From: Clostridiaceae bacterium
Lineage (GTDB): Bacteria; Bacillota; Clostridia; Saccharofermentanales; Saccharofermentanaceae
Assembly (NCBI GenBank): GCA_012729635.1
Contig: JAAYCT010000012.1
Location: 1 to 64,000 of the forward strand
Direction of reading: 5' to 3'
Length of the DNA: 64,000 nucleotides
Below the pieces are notes generated by a model. The model saw only the letters and a program-made list of their open reading frames with translations. It was not told the DNA's origin and ran no database searches. This document shows, one piece after another, positions 29,271-38,022 of this stretch. How positions within the stretch are numbered: position 1 is the stretch's first letter; each line of letters begins with the position of its first letter. The position numbers were made by a program, and so were the translations under genes.

Positions 29271-29359
29271 GAGTGAGCGGACGCAGCCGTTCGATTGAAT
29301 CCGAACGGCATAAGTCGATGGCGCGCACAAGGCAGTACGGAAGAGAAGAGGTAATCGGT

Positions 29360-30472
29360 ATGGCCGACAGCAAACGAAGTGAAACGAAGGATGAGGCAAT
29401 ATCGCGTGTCGGTATTTTCGGACTGGGATTAATCGGAGGATCGCTTGCGAAAGCCCTTCGAATCAAAGCCGGGATTCCGTATATCGTCGCGATCGATATC
29501 GATGCCGATTCCGGGAAACGGGCGATTGAGGAACAGATCATCGATCGTTTCGCTTCGCCCCAGGAAGGTCTTGATCTTTTTAACGATCTGGATTTGGTAT
29601 TGCTGTGCGCTCCGACATCGGTAATCGAGAAACGGATTCCCGAGTTTGCGCGGTTGAATATCGGAATTATCTCCGATGTCGGCTCGGTCAAAGAGCCGGT
29701 TATGGATCAGGTTACCCTGCCTAATTTTGTCGGCGGACACCCGATGGCCGGCTCCGAAAGACACGGATATGCCTGCTCGAACGCCTCGCTTTTTGAAAAT
29801 GCTCCGTATGTTTTATGTGTCGGAAAAACCTGCGAGGTTTCTGCGGTACGACTGATTCTTCTGGAAGATTTGATTCGGAAAATCGGAGCGTTCCCGTTAC
29901 GGATGGATGCCAAAGAGCACGATCGGCGAGTGGCGACGATTTCGCATCTCCCTCATATCGCTGCGTCGGCACTTTCTCTTCTTGCGGCACAGCTTGACGA
30001 CGGACAGCTGGCGGCACTTGCCGCGGGTGGGTTTCGGGACATTACCCGGATTGCTTCCTCGGACCCGGCGCTTTGGGCGGAAATTACCGAGGCGTCCGCA
30101 AAAAGACTCGTTCCGGTTCTTGCTTCGTACATCGACCTTTTATCCGGAATTCGCGATAAGTTGTCCGCGGGCGATAAACGAGCGGTCGAAGCGTTCTTTG
30201 CGCAGGCGGCTCATTTTCGAAACAGCCTTCCGACGGTCGGCAGAGGTGCTTTGGACGCGACGAGTTCACTGACCGTTTATTTGGAAGACAAGCCCGGTCA
30301 GCTCGGAATGATTTCGACCATTCTCGGTCGGGAGAATATCAATATCCGGAATATCAATATCCGAAATTTTCGGACATATGAAGGCGGACAGCTTCATCTT
30401 CTTCTCGAAAACAGCGCACAGGCCGTGCGTGCATACTCGATCCTGAAGGAGGCCGGCTATGAGTGCGATTAG
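29360..30472 (+). CDS. tyrA: Prephenate dehydrogenase with ACT domain
   Basis: This 370-residue enzyme converts prephenate to 4-hydroxyphenylpyruvate with NAD(P)+ for tyrosine. ATG 29360 with AAGAGG upstream is preferred; the frame is open back to GTG 29273. The Rossmann motif GIFGLGLIGGSLAKAL, then SDVGSVKEPV, GGHPMAGSERHG and ATISHLPHIAASAL, are family hallmarks. Residues about 295-370 form an ACT domain (LTVYLEDKPGQLGMISTILG), the usual site of feedback control by an aromatic amino acid. It overlaps the next gene by 14 bases. Confidence 0.93.
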   Translation: MADSKRSETKDEAISRVGIFGLGLIGGSLAKALRIKAGIPYIVAIDIDADSGKRAIEEQIIDRFASPQEGLDLFNDLDLVLLCAPTSVIEKRIPEFARLNIGIISDVGSVKEPVMDQVTLPNFVGGHPMAGSERHGYACSNASLFENAPYVLCVGKTCEVSAVRLILLEDLIRKIGAFPLRMDAKEHDRRVATISHLPHIAASALSLLAAQLDDGQLAALAAGGFRDITRIASSDPALWAEITEASAKRLVPVLASYIDLLSGIRDKLSAGDKRAVEAFFAQAAHFRNSLPTVGRGALDATSSLTVYLEDKPGQLGMISTILGRENINIRNINIRNFRTYEGGQLHLLLENSAQAVRAYSILKEAGYECD

Positions 30473-31829
30473 GATCGGTCTGGTCGGTCACCCCCTCGGG
30501 CACAGTATGTCCCCGTACATCCACGAGCGAATCATGGAAGCGGTCGGAATCCCGGGCCGGTACGAGCTTTTTGATATTGATCCGGAACAGATGGATCATT
30601 ATTTGCCCGTCTTGCTTCGGGACTTGCACGGATTCAATTGTACGATTCCTTATAAAGAGCGGATCATCGGGCATCTGGAAGGATTGGATTCGGTTTCCCA
30701 AAGACTTAAGGCGGTTAACACCGTCTTTGAGCGTCGAGGCTATAACACCGATCGCGACGGATTCTCTGCATGTAAAATCGAGCTTTCCGGGAAAAGAGTC
30801 TTACTTATCGGATCGGGGGGAGTCGCGCGAATGCTCGCCTTTGAGGCCGCGGATGCCGATGCCGAGATTTCAATTCTCGGCATCGATCGGGTTCAGACCG
30901 AAAAGCTGATCGGAGATATCCGGCCGTTCGCGCGATCGGTCCATAGAGTCGATTCCGACGAAGAAGCCGCCGGTTTTGCTCCGGAGGTCGTCATCAATGC
31001 AACCCCGCTCGGGATGTGGCCGAAGGTATCCGGGAAACCCTCCTTCTCCGATTTCATCACCCGAGGAACACGTGTTTTTGACACGGTTTATAATCCCCCG
31101 GCCACCCGAATGGTTCTTATATCGCGCAAAAAAGGAGCCGTCGCCACGGGCGGATTACCGATGCTGTTTTTTCAGGCTTTGGCCGCACAGAGAATTTGGA
31201 GCCCGGGCGTGAATTTCGATGTGAAAAGATTGCTGCCGATTTTGGATGATCTGCCTCGTGAAATGCTTAAGAAATCACCGATTAAAATCTTGATTACGGG
31301 ATTTATGGGATGTGGAAAAACGACCGTGGGAAGAAGAATCGCCGAGATTCTGAAGATACCGTTCATCGACACGGACGAACAGATCAAGCGGATTTGCGGA
31401 TGCGACATCACGGAGATTTTCGAGCGTGACGGAGAGGGTTCGTTCCGAAGGCTTGAGACGGATGTTTCGCGTGAGTATCTTGCGCGCGCCGGTTCATGTG
31501 TCATTGCGTCGGGAGGCGGGATGATCATGCAACATGAAAATCAGGCGCTGATTGAGGAATTCGGAGCGATGAATGTGTTTCTTCATGTTCCGATCGAGTC
31601 GCTGTGGGAGCGGATCCGTCTGGATCGGAGTCGTCCGCTCGCCGGAAATCCGGACGAGTCGGAGGGCGACCGATTTACAAAGGTGGCACGCCTTTTCGAG
31701 GCGCGGCTGCCGGAGTATAACAAAAATGCGGACTTAATCATCCATGCGGACCGTGATCCCGAGCTGGTTGCCCGGGCGGCGGTAAACGCTCTCGGATACG
31801 GAGGATACGATTATGATACTGGTTCTTAA
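30459..31829 (+). CDS. aroE/aroK: Fused shikimate dehydrogenase-shikimate kinase
   Basis: This 456-residue protein carries two consecutive shikimate steps. Residues 1 to about 268 are AroE: GHPLGHSMSPY, catalytic Lys66 in CTIPYKE, AVNT (85-88), NTDRDG (96-101), NADPH fold GSGGVAR, INATPLGM and GGLPMLFFQA. Residues about 274-456 are AroK: P-loop GFMGCGKTT (281-289), DTDEQI, SGGGMI (351-356) and the lid Arg region RSRPLAG. The linker is only about ten residues. AAGGAGG precedes ATG 30459 inside the end of tyrA, and the 3' end overlaps aroF by 17 bases. Confidence 0.93.
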   Translation: MSAIRIGLVGHPLGHSMSPYIHERIMEAVGIPGRYELFDIDPEQMDHYLPVLLRDLHGFNCTIPYKERIIGHLEGLDSVSQRLKAVNTVFERRGYNTDRDGFSACKIELSGKRVLLIGSGGVARMLAFEAADADAEISILGIDRVQTEKLIGDIRPFARSVHRVDSDEEAAGFAPEVVINATPLGMWPKVSGKPSFSDFITRGTRVFDTVYNPPATRMVLISRKKGAVATGGLPMLFFQALAAQRIWSPGVNFDVKRLLPILDDLPREMLKKSPIKILITGFMGCGKTTVGRRIAEILKIPFIDTDEQIKRICGCDITEIFERDGEGSFRRLETDVSREYLARAGSCVIASGGGMIMQHENQALIEEFGAMNVFLHVPIESLWERIRLDRSRPLAGNPDESEGDRFTKVARLFEARLPEYNKNADLIIHADRDPELVARAAVNALGYGGYDYDTGS

Positions 31830-32829
31830 AAACGGAGTAACAAAGGAAAAAACGGAAAACTTATGCGCCTTCCTCGAAAAGAATTACGGCGTTCAGACCA
31901 ATACGATTTACGGCAGTCAGACGACGATTATCGGATTAGTCGGGGACACCAGTGCCGTCGAGATCGAAGCGATGCAGATGCTCGAGGAGGTCGATCGCGT
32001 CATGAAGGTTCAGGAGCCTTACAAGCGAGCGAACCGAAAATTCCACCCCGACAACACGGTTGTCCCGATCGGTGATATTGAGATTGGCACGGATCGAATC
32101 ATTATTTGTGCGGGACCGTGCTCGGTCGAATCCGAGGAACAGGTCCTTGAGATTGCCGAAGCGGTAAAAACATCCGGCGCGACGCTCTTTCGCGGAGGCG
32201 CATTCAAACCGAGAACATCTCCCTATGCCTTTCAGGGGCTGAAGGCGGAGGGCCTTATGTACCTGAAGCGCGCGCGATTAAAGACCGGACTTCCGGTCGT
32301 GTCGGAAATTACCAATGCCGCTCAACTGGAGCTCTTTATCGAGTTTGTCGATGTTATTCAGGTGGGCGCCCGGAACATGCAGAACTTTGAGCTTTTAAAG
32401 GAGCTCGGTCGCATTTCGAAGCCGGTCCTTCTTAAAAGAGGGTTCGCCAACTCGATCGATGAGTTGCTGATGTCCGCCGAATATATCATGTCCGGCGGCA
32501 ATTCACGGATCATCCTTTGCGAACGCGGCATCCGGACTTTCGAGACATCGACGAGAAATACGCTGGATATCAGTGCGGTCCCGGTCCTGAAGGCAAGAAC
32601 ACACCTGCCGGTTGTCGTCGATCCGTCGCATGCGGGCGGAGCGGCGTGGCTTGTCGAGCCGCTCTCCAAGGCCGCCATTGCGGTCGGAGCAGACGGCCTG
32701 ATCATTGAAGTGCATAACGATCCGATTCATGCGCTGAGCGACGGCAAACAATCGCTGACTCCCGATGACTTTAACGATGTGATGAATCGTTTGCGTCCGG
32801 TTGCGGAATCGGTCGGAAGGTATATTTAG
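31813..32829 (+). CDS. aroF: 3-deoxy-7-phosphoheptulonate synthase, type I beta
   Basis: This 338-residue enzyme condenses phosphoenolpyruvate and erythrose 4-phosphate, the first shikimate step. Residues 1 to about 70 are the ferredoxin-like regulatory domain (MILVLKNGVTKEKTENLCAF) found in Thermotoga-type enzymes, where Tyr or Phe binds and inhibits. The barrel follows: IICAGPCSVES, FRGGAFKPRTSPYAFQG, VGARNMQNF, LLKRG, and VVDPSHAGG. Thus both transcription (T-box) and activity may respond to aromatic amino acids. It starts 17 bases inside the aroE/aroK gene. Confidence 0.95.
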   Translation: MILVLKNGVTKEKTENLCAFLEKNYGVQTNTIYGSQTTIIGLVGDTSAVEIEAMQMLEEVDRVMKVQEPYKRANRKFHPDNTVVPIGDIEIGTDRIIICAGPCSVESEEQVLEIAEAVKTSGATLFRGGAFKPRTSPYAFQGLKAEGLMYLKRARLKTGLPVVSEITNAAQLELFIEFVDVIQVGARNMQNFELLKELGRISKPVLLKRGFANSIDELLMSAEYIMSGGNSRIILCERGIRTFETSTRNTLDISAVPVLKARTHLPVVVDPSHAGGAAWLVEPLSKAAIAVGADGLIIEVHNDPIHALSDGKQSLTPDDFNDVMNRLRPVAESVGRYI

Positions 32830-32984
32830 CGGATTCCGGATCATATCCGGCCGACGCTCGGGTGAAGTCTCTTCCCAACAGGCCAACAGGGATTTTCAGG
32901 CAAAATGTTGGGTGTTTGACCGGTTCATGGCATAATGAAATGGATGGCCGACGGCGGATTTACCGAAAGAAAAGGAGACGCAAA

Positions 32985-34046
32985 ATGCCCGATATCATGG
33001 CAAATACGAATAACGGAAATTATCCGATCTTTATTCAGTCCGGGAAGTTGGACCGATTAGGAGAAATTGCGGCCTCTTGTGTTAAGGGTCGAAAAGCCTT
33101 CGTCGTAACAGACTCGAACGTGGCACCTCTTTATCTCGTCCGTGCGGTCGATGCGCTGAAAAAGGAAGGGTTCTCGACGCCGTCCTGTACCGTTCCGGCC
33201 GGAGAGTCGTCAAAGAGCCGGGACATCCTGTTTATGCTTTTTGAACAATTCAATGCTGCGGGCGTCTCAAGGGCGGACGTGATTGTCGCCTTAGGTGGCG
33301 GCGTAATCGGTGATTTGACGGGATTTGCGGCCGCGTCCTACATGCGCGGCTGTCCTTTCATTCAGGTGCCGACGACGCTTTTGGCACAGGTGGACTCTTC
33401 GATCGGCGGAAAAACAGGCATTGATTTACCGTTCGGGAAGAATTTGGTCGGCGCGTTTTACCAACCCCGTGCCGTCCTGATTGATCCGTCGGTTCTTTCT
33501 ACGCTGACCCGATCCGTTACGGCGGAAGGAATGGCCGAGGTCATTAAATACGGCTGTATTCGTGATCGCTTGCTTTTCGAATCGATCGAAAAGGGGATGT
33601 CCGATTTGGAGTGGATGATTGAGCGATGTGTCCGGATCAAAACGACGGTCGTTCAAAACGACGAGTATGATACCGGAGAGCGAATGCTTTTGAACTTCGG
33701 ACACACGATCGGTCACGCAATCGAAAAAGTATCCGGGTACTCCGGAATATCGCACGGCGAGGCGGTTGCAATCGGTATGGTCTATGCGGCCAAAACAGGC
33801 GAAAGTTTCGGACATACCGAGAAGGGTACCGCGGAACGAATTCGCAAGCTGTTAAAGAAATGGCAATTGCCGGTTCAAACCCACATTCCGGTCGAAGAGA
33901 TTTTTGACGCGATGATGTCGGATAAGAAGCGCCTGACCGGAAAATTCTTCTTCGTGTTTCTTTCCCGAATCGGAGAAGCTTCCGCGATTCCGACCGAAAA
34001 GGACTCGTTGTTTGAACGGATGAAAGGTGTATGGGATGATGAATAG
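32985..34046 (+). CDS. aroB: 3-dehydroquinate synthase
   Basis: This 353-residue NAD- and metal-dependent cyclase makes dehydroquinate from DAHP. ATG 32985 follows AAAGGAGACG; the longer frame to 32862 has no ribosome site. Motifs are GGGVIGDLTGFAA, QVPTTLLAQVDSSIGGKTGID, KNLVGAFYQP, the metal ligands in EVIKYG (Glu) and NFGHTIGHAIE, and HGEAVAIGM. It follows aroF after 155 bases, the largest gap downstream of tyrA; TTGGGT-17-CATAAT at about 32908-32936 could be a weak internal promoter. It overlaps aroA by 11 bases. Confidence 0.95.
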   Translation: MPDIMANTNNGNYPIFIQSGKLDRLGEIAASCVKGRKAFVVTDSNVAPLYLVRAVDALKKEGFSTPSCTVPAGESSKSRDILFMLFEQFNAAGVSRADVIVALGGGVIGDLTGFAAASYMRGCPFIQVPTTLLAQVDSSIGGKTGIDLPFGKNLVGAFYQPRAVLIDPSVLSTLTRSVTAEGMAEVIKYGCIRDRLLFESIEKGMSDLEWMIERCVRIKTTVVQNDEYDTGERMLLNFGHTIGHAIEKVSGYSGISHGEAVAIGMVYAAKTGESFGHTEKGTAERIRKLLKKWQLPVQTHIPVEEIFDAMMSDKKRLTGKFFFVFLSRIGEASAIPTEKDSLFERMKGVWDDE

Positions 34047-35331
34047 CGAAACCCCGGACAGGAGCTGTTCCCGGGGCAAAATGATCGAAATTATGCCCGG
34101 GGGTCTGGTGGGAGATGTTCGGCCGCCGCTCTCCAAAAGTCTTTTGCATCGGGCCCTGATTCTTTCCATGCTTGCGGGCGATTTGGGTCAGGTCATCATC
34201 CCGGAAGAGTCGATTTCGGAGGATATTTCCGCTACGCTCCAATGCCTTATGACGATTATGAAATCGGATGACGGGGATGAAATAGAACTCTTTTGCAACG
34301 AGTCGGGATCGACGCTCCGATTTTTGATTCCGCTGGTTGCGGTTCTCGGGCGCACGGCCGTTTTCACGGGCGTGGGAAGATTGCCGAGAAGACCGCTTCG
34401 GGAATACGAGCGGATTTTCAAAGGTTCCGGAGTACGACTGGAATTTCCCGACGGCGATCATTATCTTCCGCTTCGCGTAAGCGGTCGTCTTCCGGCCGGT
34501 CGCTATGAGGTTCCGGGCAATGTAAGTTCGCAGTACATTACCGGGCTGTTGCTTGCCTTGTCCGCGGCGACCGGAAATTCGGAGATTGTCATTACCACAA
34601 AGCTTGAATCCGAACCGTATATTGAAATGACCCGGGATGTTATGCGTGCGTTCGGCGTTTTTACATCGAAGAATGAAAACGTCTATACGGTCGGCGGAGG
34701 GCAGAGGTTTTTTCGTGAAAAACCGTATATTGCCGAACCGGATTTTTCGCATGCCGCCTTCTGGTATGTCGCGAATTATCTCGGCTCGGGCATCGACATT
34801 CTCGATATGTCGCCTTGTTCTTCGCAGGGTGACAGCGAGATTATTCCGCTTCTGGGTGCACTGAAAGATTACTCCGCATCGCCCAATGCCCGATCGAAAA
34901 ATTCCTGCTTCACCGTTGATGCTTCACAGGTGCCGGATTTAATCCCGGTATTGTCCGTCGCTTGCGCGGGGACTTTTTGCACATCCCGAATCATTAACGC
35001 GGAGCGATTGCGGCTTAAGGAGTGCGATCGCCTGGCCGCGACGCGCGATATGCTCACGCGTCTCGGAGTGAAAACCGAACAGAACGATGATGAATTATGG
35101 ATATTCGGAGCGCAACATGATCCCGGTGAGCCGATATTTGCATCCTGTGTCATCGAATCGTACGCAGACCATCGTCTTGTAATGGCCGCCGCTGTTGCGG
35201 CAACTCGCGCTGCGGGCCCGGTCCGGATCACGGACTATAGCGCGGTAAACAAATCCTATCCGGACTTTTTTCGTGATTTCAGGAGAATGGGAGGGAAAGC
35301 CGATGAGCTCGATTTGGGGAAACAAGGTTAA
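34036..35331 (+). CDS. aroA: 5-enolpyruvylshikimate-3-phosphate synthase
   Basis: This 431-residue enzyme adds enolpyruvate from PEP to shikimate 3-phosphate. ATG 34036, with AAAGGTG upstream, is preferred over GTG 34027; both lie inside the end of aroB. Motifs are PPLSKSLLHRALI, NESGSTLRFLIPL, GRLPRRPLREY, PGNVSSQYITGLLLAL, RLRLKECDRLAAT and SYADHRLVMAAA. Glyphosate sensitivity class cannot be settled by eye. It overlaps aroC by 29 bases. Confidence 0.94.
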   Translation: MMNSETPDRSCSRGKMIEIMPGGLVGDVRPPLSKSLLHRALILSMLAGDLGQVIIPEESISEDISATLQCLMTIMKSDDGDEIELFCNESGSTLRFLIPLVAVLGRTAVFTGVGRLPRRPLREYERIFKGSGVRLEFPDGDHYLPLRVSGRLPAGRYEVPGNVSSQYITGLLLALSAATGNSEIVITTKLESEPYIEMTRDVMRAFGVFTSKNENVYTVGGGQRFFREKPYIAEPDFSHAAFWYVANYLGSGIDILDMSPCSSQGDSEIIPLLGALKDYSASPNARSKNSCFTVDASQVPDLIPVLSVACAGTFCTSRIINAERLRLKECDRLAATRDMLTRLGVKTEQNDDELWIFGAQHDPGEPIFASCVIESYADHRLVMAAAVAATRAAGPVRITDYSAVNKSYPDFFRDFRRMGGKADELDLGKQG

Positions 35332-36370
35332 AATCAGTTTGTTCGGAGAATCGCATGGCGTCGGGATCGGCGCGGTGATTGACGGATTGCCTGCCGGATA
35401 CGCGATTGATCTGGAGCGCGCGAACCGGCACATGAAGCGCAGAAGTCCGGGATACCAACCCGGAGCGACGGCGCGAAGAGAAGAAGACCGGGTTCGGATT
35501 TTGTCCGGCCTCTATATGGACAAAACGACGGGGACCCCGCTTTGCGCATTGATTGAGAATCACGATACGAAATCCGCCGATTACAGCAAAATATCCGCTA
35601 AACCCCGCCCCGGACATGCCGATCTGACGGGATTGGCTCGTTATGAGGGATCAAATGACCCGCGCGGCGGGGGACATTTTTCGGGAAGACTGACCGCTCC
35701 GCTCACCTTTGCCGGAGCTTTAGCGCTCCAGATTCTCGAAAGCCGGGGCGTGATCGTTCGCGCCCACATATACAGCATCGGTACGATTGAAGATACTCCC
35801 TACGACCCGATGAAAATCCCCAAGGATTGCTCGGAGCATTCCATTCCGGTGATATCGGAAGGGCAGGGACTAAAGATGAGAGAATTGATTGAGACACTTC
35901 GAAATGAACTCGATTCGGTCGGCGGTGTGATCGAATGTATCGTTACCGGATTTCCTGCGGGTCTGGGCCGTCCGATTTTTGACAATATCGAGAGCCGTTT
36001 GTCTTCGATTATTTTCGGGATTCCGGCCGTTAAGGGCATTGAATTCGGGCGGGGATTCGGCGTTTCAAGTCAGAAAGGATCCACGAACAACGACGAACCG
36101 TACATGACCGAAAGAGGAATCCGTCTCCGGACGAACCATGCGGGAGGAATCGAAGGCGGAATTACGAACGGTATGCCGATTTTGCTTCGGTGTGCCTTTA
36201 AGCCGACCCCTTCCATCGGCAAACAGCAGAACACGGTCAATCTGGAAACGATGTCCGACGATACGATCGAAGTCGGCGGTCGTCACGATTCCTGTATCGT
36301 TCCACGGGCGGTACCGGTGGTTGAGTCGGCGGTCGCCTTCGCTTTGCTGGACATCATGGAGGAGGGCTGA
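35303..36370 (+). CDS. aroC: Chorismate synthase
   Basis: This 355-residue FMN-dependent lyase makes chorismate from EPSP. ATG 35303 follows GGGAGGGAAAGC; the frame opens further to 35273 without support. Family motifs are the N-terminal GNKVKISLFGESHGVGIGAVIDGLPAG, RRSPGYQPGATARREEDRV, RPGHADLTG, DPRGGGHFSGRLTAP, and the C-terminal GGRHDSCIVPRAVPVVES. It is two bases before the next gene, so the two are surely co-transcribed. Confidence 0.95.
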   Translation: MSSIWGNKVKISLFGESHGVGIGAVIDGLPAGYAIDLERANRHMKRRSPGYQPGATARREEDRVRILSGLYMDKTTGTPLCALIENHDTKSADYSKISAKPRPGHADLTGLARYEGSNDPRGGGHFSGRLTAPLTFAGALALQILESRGVIVRAHIYSIGTIEDTPYDPMKIPKDCSEHSIPVISEGQGLKMRELIETLRNELDSVGGVIECIVTGFPAGLGRPIFDNIESRLSSIIFGIPAVKGIEFGRGFGVSSQKGSTNNDEPYMTERGIRLRTNHAGGIEGGITNGMPILLRCAFKPTPSIGKQQNTVNLETMSDDTIEVGGRHDSCIVPRAVPVVESAVAFALLDIMEEG

Positions 36371-36372
36371 GA

Positions 36373-38022
36373 ATGAAAAATCACGCAAATCCCGTCGTGC
36401 TTCTGATTAACGGTCCCAATCTGAATTTGCTCGGAAAACGCGATCCCGAACAATACGGATCGTTTACGCTTCAGGAGGTTTACGACGCGTTTCGGAGCAA
36501 GGCGGAGGAACTGGAAGTGGAGCCTCGTTTTTTTCAGTCGAACAGCGAGGGAGAGATCGTAACCGAAATCCAGAAGGCGATGGAATACGCGGACGGAATC
36601 GTAATCAATGCCGGCGCGCATACTCATTACAGCTACGCAATCATGGATGCGATCGAGGTATGCGGGCTTCCGGTCATGGAGGTTCATATTTCCGATATAC
36701 ATAAACGTGAGCCGTTTCGAAGGGTATCCGTTATTCGATCCGTTTGTGTCGATCAGGTATACGGGCTCGGAATCAACAGTTACCTTGTTGGGCTCGAAAA
36801 GCTTTGTGGGGAGCACATTTTCAAGAGCAGAGAAAAATCCGGAAAGGCAGACCGGACCGGCACGGATGAAAGCGAGGACCACCGAACGCGTCTTACAAAA
36901 TTGCGCGGACAGATAACGGAGATTGATTCCGAGTTGATGCGCGTTTTTAATCGAAGAATGAGTCTTGCCGAAAAAGTGGCGTACCTGAAGGTCTCCTCCG
37001 ACACGTCGGTTTACGATGCCGAACGCGAAGCCCAGGTGTCCGGTTTTGCCCGGAAAATGGCCGGAGAGGAAATGGGGACACGGGTCGATTCCATGATGAA
37101 AACGATGATGCGAATCTCCCGCGAGCGCCAATACGACATCCTGATCCAAAGGGATGTCGATTGGCCGATCGGAAAAGAGTTGGCGGGAGCGGAACGGAGC
37201 CTTGCGTCCGTGTCGACCGTCGCGTATGCGGGAACGGAAGGATCCTATTCCGAAATAGCGGCCCGAAAATTATTTTCGGATAAGCAATTCGTACGGGCGA
37301 GGACATTCTCCGCCGCTTGTGAGCTGCTTACCGAAAAACGCGCGGATGTCGCCGTCCTGCCCCTCGAAAACACAATCGTCGGAAGCGTTGACAATGTGTT
37401 TGAATTACTGCAAAAGAAGAATTTGTACATCGTCCGGGCGACTTCGGTCGAGGTCGCCCATCGCCTGGCTGTGCTTCCCGGAACAAGAACGGAGGACATT
37501 CGTACGGTTTCGAGTCATCCGCAAGGTCTGGCTCAATGCTCCGAAGCCATCATTCGTTACGGATGGGAAACGCTCGTTTCCGACAATACGGCCTTTTCCG
37601 CGGAGGAGGTTGCCCGCAGGGGCGATCGCTCGCTCGCGGCCATTTCATCCGAGGAGGCGGCAAGGCGAAATCATCTGGACATTCTTCCGATTGATGTTCG
37701 AAACGCCGACCAGAACCGGACGCGCTTCATCGTTGTGTCTTCAAGTTTGATCATTACCCCCGACGCGGACCGCATCAGTACGTTAATGCATCTTCCGCAC
37801 CGAAGCGGAGCACTGGTCTCCGCTCTGCAGGTTTTTGCCGATCGAGGGCTGAATCTGACCGCGATTTCGTCCAGGCCCATCGTGGGAACACCGGGTGAAT
37901 ATGCGTTCTTTTTGGATTTTATGTGTCCCTCGATGGGAAAGGATGCGCTTCTTGCGCTGTACCAGTTGTCATCGGAAATGCCGTATGTTAAAGTTTTGGG
38001 GTGGTATGTTGAGGAGGGCTAG
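36373..38022 (+). CDS. aroQ/pheA: Fusion of type II dehydroquinase with chorismate mutase-prephenate dehydratase
   Basis: This 549-residue single frame contains three enzymes and a regulatory domain. Residues 7-145: type II 3-dehydroquinate dehydratase (NGPNLNLLGKRDPEQYGS with catalytic Tyr28; INAGAHTHYS with the His). Residues 148-172: polar linker. About 174-258: AroQ-class chorismate mutase (LRGQITEIDSELMRVFNRRM, VYDAERE). About 282-455: prephenate dehydratase (YAGTEGSYSE, LPLENTIVGSV, NRTRF at 448-452). About 460-549: ACT domain (RSGAL, ISSRPI), where Phe normally inhibits. CM-PDT-ACT is the ordinary P-protein; the dehydroquinase in front is unusual. It catalyses step 3 of the shikimate pathway plus the Phe branch. 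No stop or frame change interrupts it. Confidence 0.93.
   Translation: MKNHANPVVLLINGPNLNLLGKRDPEQYGSFTLQEVYDAFRSKAEELEVEPRFFQSNSEGEIVTEIQKAMEYADGIVINAGAHTHYSYAIMDAIEVCGLPVMEVHISDIHKREPFRRVSVIRSVCVDQVYGLGINSYLVGLEKLCGEHIFKSREKSGKADRTGTDESEDHRTRLTKLRGQITEIDSELMRVFNRRMSLAEKVAYLKVSSDTSVYDAEREAQVSGFARKMAGEEMGTRVDSMMKTMMRISRERQYDILIQRDVDWPIGKELAGAERSLASVSTVAYAGTEGSYSEIAARKLFSDKQFVRARTFSAACELLTEKRADVAVLPLENTIVGSVDNVFELLQKKNLYIVRATSVEVAHRLAVLPGTRTEDIRTVSSHPQGLAQCSEAIIRYGWETLVSDNTAFSAEEVARRGDRSLAAISSEEAARRNHLDILPIDVRNADQNRTRFIVVSSSLIITPDADRISTLMHLPHRSGALVSALQVFADRGLNLTAISSRPIVGTPGEYAFFLDFMCPSMGKDALLALYQLSSEMPYVKVLGWYVEEG

Follow-up and report, generated by a model that had tools for sequence, protein, structure and literature searches.

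Described fusions and the architecture of the locus

The P-protein PheA (NCBIfam NF007910) carries a chorismate mutase (CM_2), a prephenate dehydratase (PDT) and an ACT domain on one chain, in that order. A CM-PDT base can also carry further enzymes; the TyrA-CM-PDT proteins of Archaeoglobus and Ca. Huberarchaea comprise three aromatic-pathway enzymes, the third partner being prephenate dehydrogenase, a neighbour at the branch point (PMC11237513). Rare joins of a mutase with a Phe-branch dehydratase are also represented by the CM-cyclohexadienyl dehydratase fusions of a few species, which are exported, feature an AroQ-gamma mutase and no dehydroquinase, and for which independent origins have been proposed in two groups (PMC10520331). 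Type II dehydroquinases (DHQ; TIGR01088, PF01220) form tetrahedral dodecamers (PMC10772564) and are usually stand-alone proteins of about 145-180 aa. Fused shikimate enzymes that include a dehydroquinase are likewise known, namely AroD-AroE, reported alongside AroE-AroK (PMC11237513), and the pentafunctional fungal Aro1 (PMC9074039). AroD-AroE, AroE-AroK and Aro1 all combine enzymes for successive steps in the common pathway, and the dehydroquinase that AroD-AroE and Aro1 contain is of type I.

The protein described here adds a join of non-consecutive steps to this list of aromatic-pathway multi-enzymes. It is encoded within a 64,000-nucleotide stretch of a Clostridiaceae bacterium genome (positions 1 to 64,000 of contig JAAYCT010000012.1, assembly GCA_012729635.1), referred to here as the window, by a plus-strand gene at 36373..38022. 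The 549-aa product, found at full length in 14 genomes, comprises the Pfam domains DHquinase_II, CM_2, PDT and ACT in that order. Residues 173-548 reproduce the domain order of PheA and share its AroQ-class active-site residues and TRF motif; the differences are an additional N-terminal type II dehydroquinase of ~145 aa and an altered ESRP motif. Because the CM-PDT-ACT chain carries another catalytic domain, the fusion is by definition not a P-protein, and it reaches 173 bits against the curated NF007910 cut-off of 577, a low score such as a divergent branch would be expected to give. Compared with stand-alone type II dehydroquinases, the domain is complete, with all nine key residues, and is extended C-terminally by ~400 aa. 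Like TyrA-CM-PDT, the fusion builds on a CM-PDT base to unite three enzymes of the aromatic pathway, but its third partner catalyses an early, non-adjacent step. The open-access papers searched describe no protein that couples CM-PDT to a type II dehydroquinase, and we provisionally regard the DHQ-CM-PDT-ACT fusion as undescribed. Our preferred reading, to which we assign a probability of roughly 0.7, is that it is a trifunctional enzyme derived from one in-frame merger of aroQ and pheA, probably in an ancestor belonging to the window's Clostridia order, and later exchanged with Verrucomicrobiota.

An unbroken frame at the end of an aromatic gene run

The gene reads from ATG to TAG with no internal stop, in agreement with the single 549-codon frame originally predicted. 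That prediction also named residues 145-172 as the place where a hidden stop might lie; this stretch contains none, and it is open in all 14 genomes. The start signals of the gene appear good, with a Shine-Dalgarno sequence, AGGAGG, at 36360..36365 (plus strand) within the 3' end of aroC, the stop codon of which lies 2 bases upstream of the fusion's ATG. The possibility that CM-PDT is translated on its own from a start inside the gene was considered and rejected: the DHQ-CM linker of the window gene contains no in-frame ATG or GTG, and its single in-frame TTG lacks a Shine-Dalgarno sequence. For the window and its relatives alike, the genomes are drafts, most of them MAGs, which is the setting in which a sequencing or assembly artefact might conceal a stop between two genes. 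However, 14 assemblies show this open frame, their proteins being 48-77% identical to that of the window, so that such an error is barely conceivable. The frame is real and the artefact reading is refuted; the fusion itself is apparently undescribed, though not revolutionary.

The fusion is the last of seven tightly spaced plus-strand genes. These begin with tyrA (29273..30472), a prephenate dehydrogenase that has an ACT domain of its own, and continue with an aroE-aroK fusion (shikimate dehydrogenase-shikimate kinase, 30459..31829; a fusion type already known), aroF (DAHP synthase with a ferredoxin-like domain, 31813..32829), aroB (dehydroquinate synthase, 32862..34046), aroA (EPSP synthase, 34027..35331) and aroC (chorismate synthase, 35273..36370). 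The run covers the pathway from DAHP synthase to chorismate in full, together with enzymes of the Tyr and Phe branches, and its close spacing and conserved order suggest a single operon. Pfam recognises neither an ACT nor a CM domain on the DAHP synthase of this operon. Downstream of the fusion lies an S49 peptidase gene; this adjacency is shared within the window's genus and by genus g5.

The window's genome is ~97% complete. Within it, the fusion contains the sole type II dehydroquinase, the sole CM_2 domain and the only dehydratase that could be detected; searches of this genome found no type I dehydroquinase and no second type II dehydroquinase, mutase or dehydratase. The cell relies on the fusion for three steps, provided that the small missing portion hides no substitute. 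Three of the Verrucomicrobiota carriers introduced below (G563, G567, G688) feature an additional, weaker type I dehydroquinase match.

Conservation of the catalytic domains and the linker

The type II 3-dehydroquinate dehydratase domain occupies aa 9-144 (36397..36804, plus strand; Pfam PF01220, E 4.3e-52), scoring 176 bits against a Pfam cut-off of 23.3 and passing the curated cut-off of the TIGR01088 equivalog (172 against 169.85 bits). Nine of nine key residues (N16, R23, Y28, N79, H85, E103, H105, R112 and R116) are invariant across the 14 fusions in alignment A1; these are reported to be catalytic or substrate-binding in the C. glutamicum enzyme (PMC10772564). An AlphaFold2 model of the fusion, run on the same alignment with the protein as a monomer, has a mean pLDDT of 82 and a pTM of 0.60, with low-confidence stretches at residues 1-3, 157-166 and 333-338. 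In Foldseek searches the dehydroquinase part of this model matches the type II dehydroquinases 6cv6, 1d0i and 1gqo with target TM scores of about 0.86-0.94, including 0.93 for 6cv6.

The AroQ-class (type II) chorismate mutase follows at aa 177-254 (36901..37134, plus strand; PF01817, E 2.1e-14). All eight mutase positions examined (R178, R195, K206, D215, R218, E219, S249 and Q253) are invariant in the 14 fusions in alignment A1, and we take them to correspond to R11, R28, K39, D48, R51, E52, S84 and Q88 of the E. coli mutase. The profile of this domain retrieves solved AroQ mutases including 6al9, 1ybz and 1ecm, and the model gives it a three-helix fold. With every residue checked invariant, the dehydroquinase and the mutase both appear catalytically intact.

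The prephenate dehydratase domain spans aa 283-457 (37219..37743, plus strand; PF00800, E 2.5e-46), and its part of the model matches the prephenate dehydratases 6vh5, 2qmx and 3mwb with target TM scores of about 0.71-0.79. The TRF motif (T450, R451, F452) and residues S381, H382, P383 and Q384 are invariant in the fusions. The dehydratase 'EN' pair lies in PLEN at 330-333 of the window protein and is retained by all Clostridia fusions, whereas all nine Verrucomicrobiota fusions feature PLAN or PIAN, replacing 'EN' with 'AN' (E332 to A). Dehydratase activity is therefore uncertain in the Verrucomicrobiota proteins, where activity or substrate may be altered. At the 'AN' loci (L073-L079, L084, L085) the remainder of the dehydratase site looks intact.

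The C-terminal ACT domain (aa 467-548; 37771..38016, plus strand) is matched by PF01842 at 471-529 with an E of 9.1e-7, and shows a beta-alpha-beta-beta-alpha-beta order in the model. It had been described as a Phe-type ACT, a label that fits in part: GALV is present at 479-482 and retained in the Clostridia fusions, but ESRP is absent, being replaced by SSRP at 499-502 in the window and Clostridia fusions and by [SC]SQP in the Verrucomicrobiota fusions. ESRP is a Phe-binding motif of ACT (PMC10845154). In unfused relatives within the window's order the ESRP glutamate is already replaced by Q, H or L, so the change is older than the fusion.

Between the first two enzymes lies linker 1 (aa 147-172; 36811..36888, plus strand), a hydrophilic, variable segment with a core at aa 157-166 where pLDDT falls below 50. 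The mean conservation of window residues across the 14 fusions is 0.72 for the dehydroquinase, 0.53 for the mutase (the lowest value among the enzyme domains), 0.58 for the dehydratase and 0.66 for the ACT domain; linker 1 falls to 0.22 with zero invariant residues. Being variable and predicted to be disordered, the DHQ-CM join looks like a tether rather than a conserved interface. These features bear on the suggestion, made in the original prediction, that Phe, once bound to ACT, might modulate the dehydroquinase too and so place feedback near the pathway entrance, which would here mean slowing that enzyme. The presence of an ACT domain on the same chain, the GALV motif of the Clostridia fusions, and a DAHP synthase with a ferredoxin-like domain as its only recognised addition would all suit such long-range control. 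However, the signal would have to pass the intervening mutase and dehydratase and then this 22%-identity linker, the ESRP glutamate is missing from every fusion ([SC]S[RQ]P) as well as from the unfused relatives, and genus g4 possesses a DHQ-CM protein without PDT-ACT; we consider regulation of this kind very unlikely.

Distribution across two phyla

The full architecture was found in five genomes of the window's Clostridia family (G000, G001 and G002, of the same genus, together with G006 and G010 of genus g5) and in nine Verrucomicrobiota/Lentisphaerota MAGs (G563, G564, G565, G566, G567, G688, G694, G788, G794), the proteins of which are 48-54% identical to the window protein. A sixth case from the family, in G004 (genus g3), is cut off where DHQ-CM runs into the contig end. 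The nine Verrucomicrobiota fusions comprise the matches of a contig scan of named genomes, which found the full-length fusion in Lentisphaerota and Verrucomicrobiota MAGs (L016-L020), and those of a scan covering 240 genomes from their class. Outside these two groups, samples of the window's class (391 genomes), of its phylum (398) and of the Verrucomicrobiota phylum (388) contained no full-length fusion; each sample is spread evenly over a larger group, and some genomes recur in more than one scan. Across about 1,950 genome scans, some of repeated genomes, the fusion is thus confined to one Clostridia family and one class-level Verrucomicrobiota group. Together with the absence of an open-access description, this range bears out the expectation that the arrangement is unusual. 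Two of the carriers, the Clostridia MAG L013 (76% identity to the window protein) and the Lentisphaerota MAG L016 (53%), have isolate names that share the prefix AS10tlH2TH, and therefore probably come from one sample series.

Probable origin, transfer and later separation

The sister family f3, from the same order, features the same gene order, ending in separate adjacent genes for the dehydroquinase and then the mutase-dehydratase. Its aroC, aroQ and pheA are distinct neighbouring genes, in different frames or interrupted by a stop; aroQ and pheA overlap or have a short gap or stop between them. Two apparent fusions, in G183 and G184 (open frames of 572 and 610), were discarded as two genes in one frame with a stop between.

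In a CM-PDT tree of 44 rows, all fusions form one clade (100/99), within which those from Clostridia (100/100) and those from Verrucomicrobiota (100/99) are sister groups. This clade is nested among the split-gene relatives that families f3 and f4 contribute, and native Verrucomicrobiota CM-PDTs fall apart from it; the tree accordingly disfavours an independent fusion in Verrucomicrobiota. The tree of the DHQ domain (147 columns) places the Verrucomicrobiota fusions G788 and G794 outside the remaining fusions, but an AU test does not reject a single fusion clade (p 0.32); this short tree is ambiguous, and decides neither single origin nor the placement of genus g4. The operon order aroK-aroF-aroB-aroA-aroC-fusion is held in three Verrucomicrobiota genomes. 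In a concatenated aroB-aroA-aroC tree, the Clostridia fusion genera group with genus g4 (96/97), and the Verrucomicrobiota operon takes no firm position. GC content of the Verrucomicrobiota fusion genes follows that of their flanks, from 0.43 to 0.72, which speaks against contamination and in favour of long residence there.

As the fusions form one CM-PDT clade among split-gene relatives, a single merger is the simplest account, and these sequences suggest that the most likely history is one end-to-end merger of adjacent genes, followed by inter-phylum transfer and by later splits. Under this history aroQ and pheA, the terminal pair in a complete aro operon, would have merged in frame once, in an ancestor probably within the window's Clostridia order. 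The fusion gene would later have been exchanged with Verrucomicrobiota, bringing the operon along with it, and the probable direction is from the Clostridia order to Verrucomicrobiota.

Several relatives depart from the full architecture. Within the Verrucomicrobiota fusion clade, G676 encodes its dehydroquinase and CM-PDT on different contigs; a 658-aa dehydroquinase frame in this genome (L081) was set aside as probably a stand-alone dehydroquinase that sits last in an extended open frame of GC-rich sequence. Dehydratases at L082 (G636) and L083 (G656), also nested in the fusion clade, have no recognisable mutase in front, and a profile search of the whole G636 genome returned no CM_2 match. 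In genus g4 of the window's family (L067-L071), the aro run ends in a DHQ-CM protein of ~250 aa without PDT, and the dehydratase is encoded elsewhere in the genome. This shorter protein may be the full fusion minus its PDT, or else a separate join. The unfused G676, the reduced G636 and G656, and genus g4 together indicate that the join is reversible and that the fusion is not indispensable.

The same relatives bear on whether the dehydroquinase activates or orders the mutase, with DHQ-CM as the functional unit. Persistence of the DHQ-CM join without PDT in genus g4 and the low conservation of the mutase among the enzyme domains are consistent with this idea, and the intracellular mutase of M. 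tuberculosis is activated by DAHP synthase (PMC4281200). Against it, the mutase possesses all eight of its catalytic positions, the linker is unconserved and G676 has both parts unfused, which leaves activation by the dehydroquinase an unlikely explanation.

Relatives in two phyla thus display split adjacent genes, the full fusion, DHQ-CM without PDT, and post-fusion splits. With naturally fused and split pairs this closely related, the benefit of fusing non-adjacent steps becomes directly testable.

Assembly and possible advantage

In the trifunctional enzyme that we favor, all three domains would be active and work largely independently, each retaining its usual oligomer. The dehydroquinase dodecamer could then act as a passive scaffold bearing CM-PDT dimers on flexible arms, and the gain would lie in fixed stoichiometry, co-expression and co-assembly, with early and late enzymes kept together. 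Direct channelling from dehydroquinase to mutase is not expected, because AroE, AroK, AroA and AroC act between them; simple channelling had already been discounted in the original prediction on the grounds that the fused steps are not consecutive. For the same reason the fusion lies outside the definition of an AROM-type channelling enzyme, which joins consecutive steps.

A more elaborate arrangement would be a metabolon, in which the dodecamer anchors both ends of the pathway, recruits AroE/K, AroA and AroC, and channels their intermediates. The gene run does span the whole pathway, and six mutase dimers would, on geometric grounds, fit the two-fold axes of a dehydroquinase dodecamer. Conservation across the 14 fusions nevertheless revealed neither a surface suited to recruitment nor a shared motif in the linker, and published kinetics of the exported CM-dehydratase fusions gave no sign of channelling (PMC10520331), making a metabolon highly improbable. 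A further improbable reading is that a dodecameric dehydroquinase core and dimeric mutase and dehydratase domains build a multi-enzyme particle of defined form, with an aromatic amino acid or an intermediate of the pathway controlling its assembly or its activity, the early dehydroquinase step included.

Other aromatic-pathway fusions among the relatives

Other arrangements were encountered in the course of these scans. In genus g2 of the window's family, minus-strand frames L091 (G014, 526 aa) and L092 (G003, 518 aa) feature a mutase fronting shikimate dehydrogenase; the G014 frame also includes shikimate kinase, and a separate dehydroquinase comes next in both genomes. The aro clusters of family f4 at L065 (G031) and L066 (G034) are without a type II dehydroquinase, and a type I enzyme is encoded elsewhere in the genome. 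Finally, an 800-aa minus-strand frame in G073 (L064) is an apparent aroB-aroA fusion of dehydroquinate synthase and EPSP synthase.
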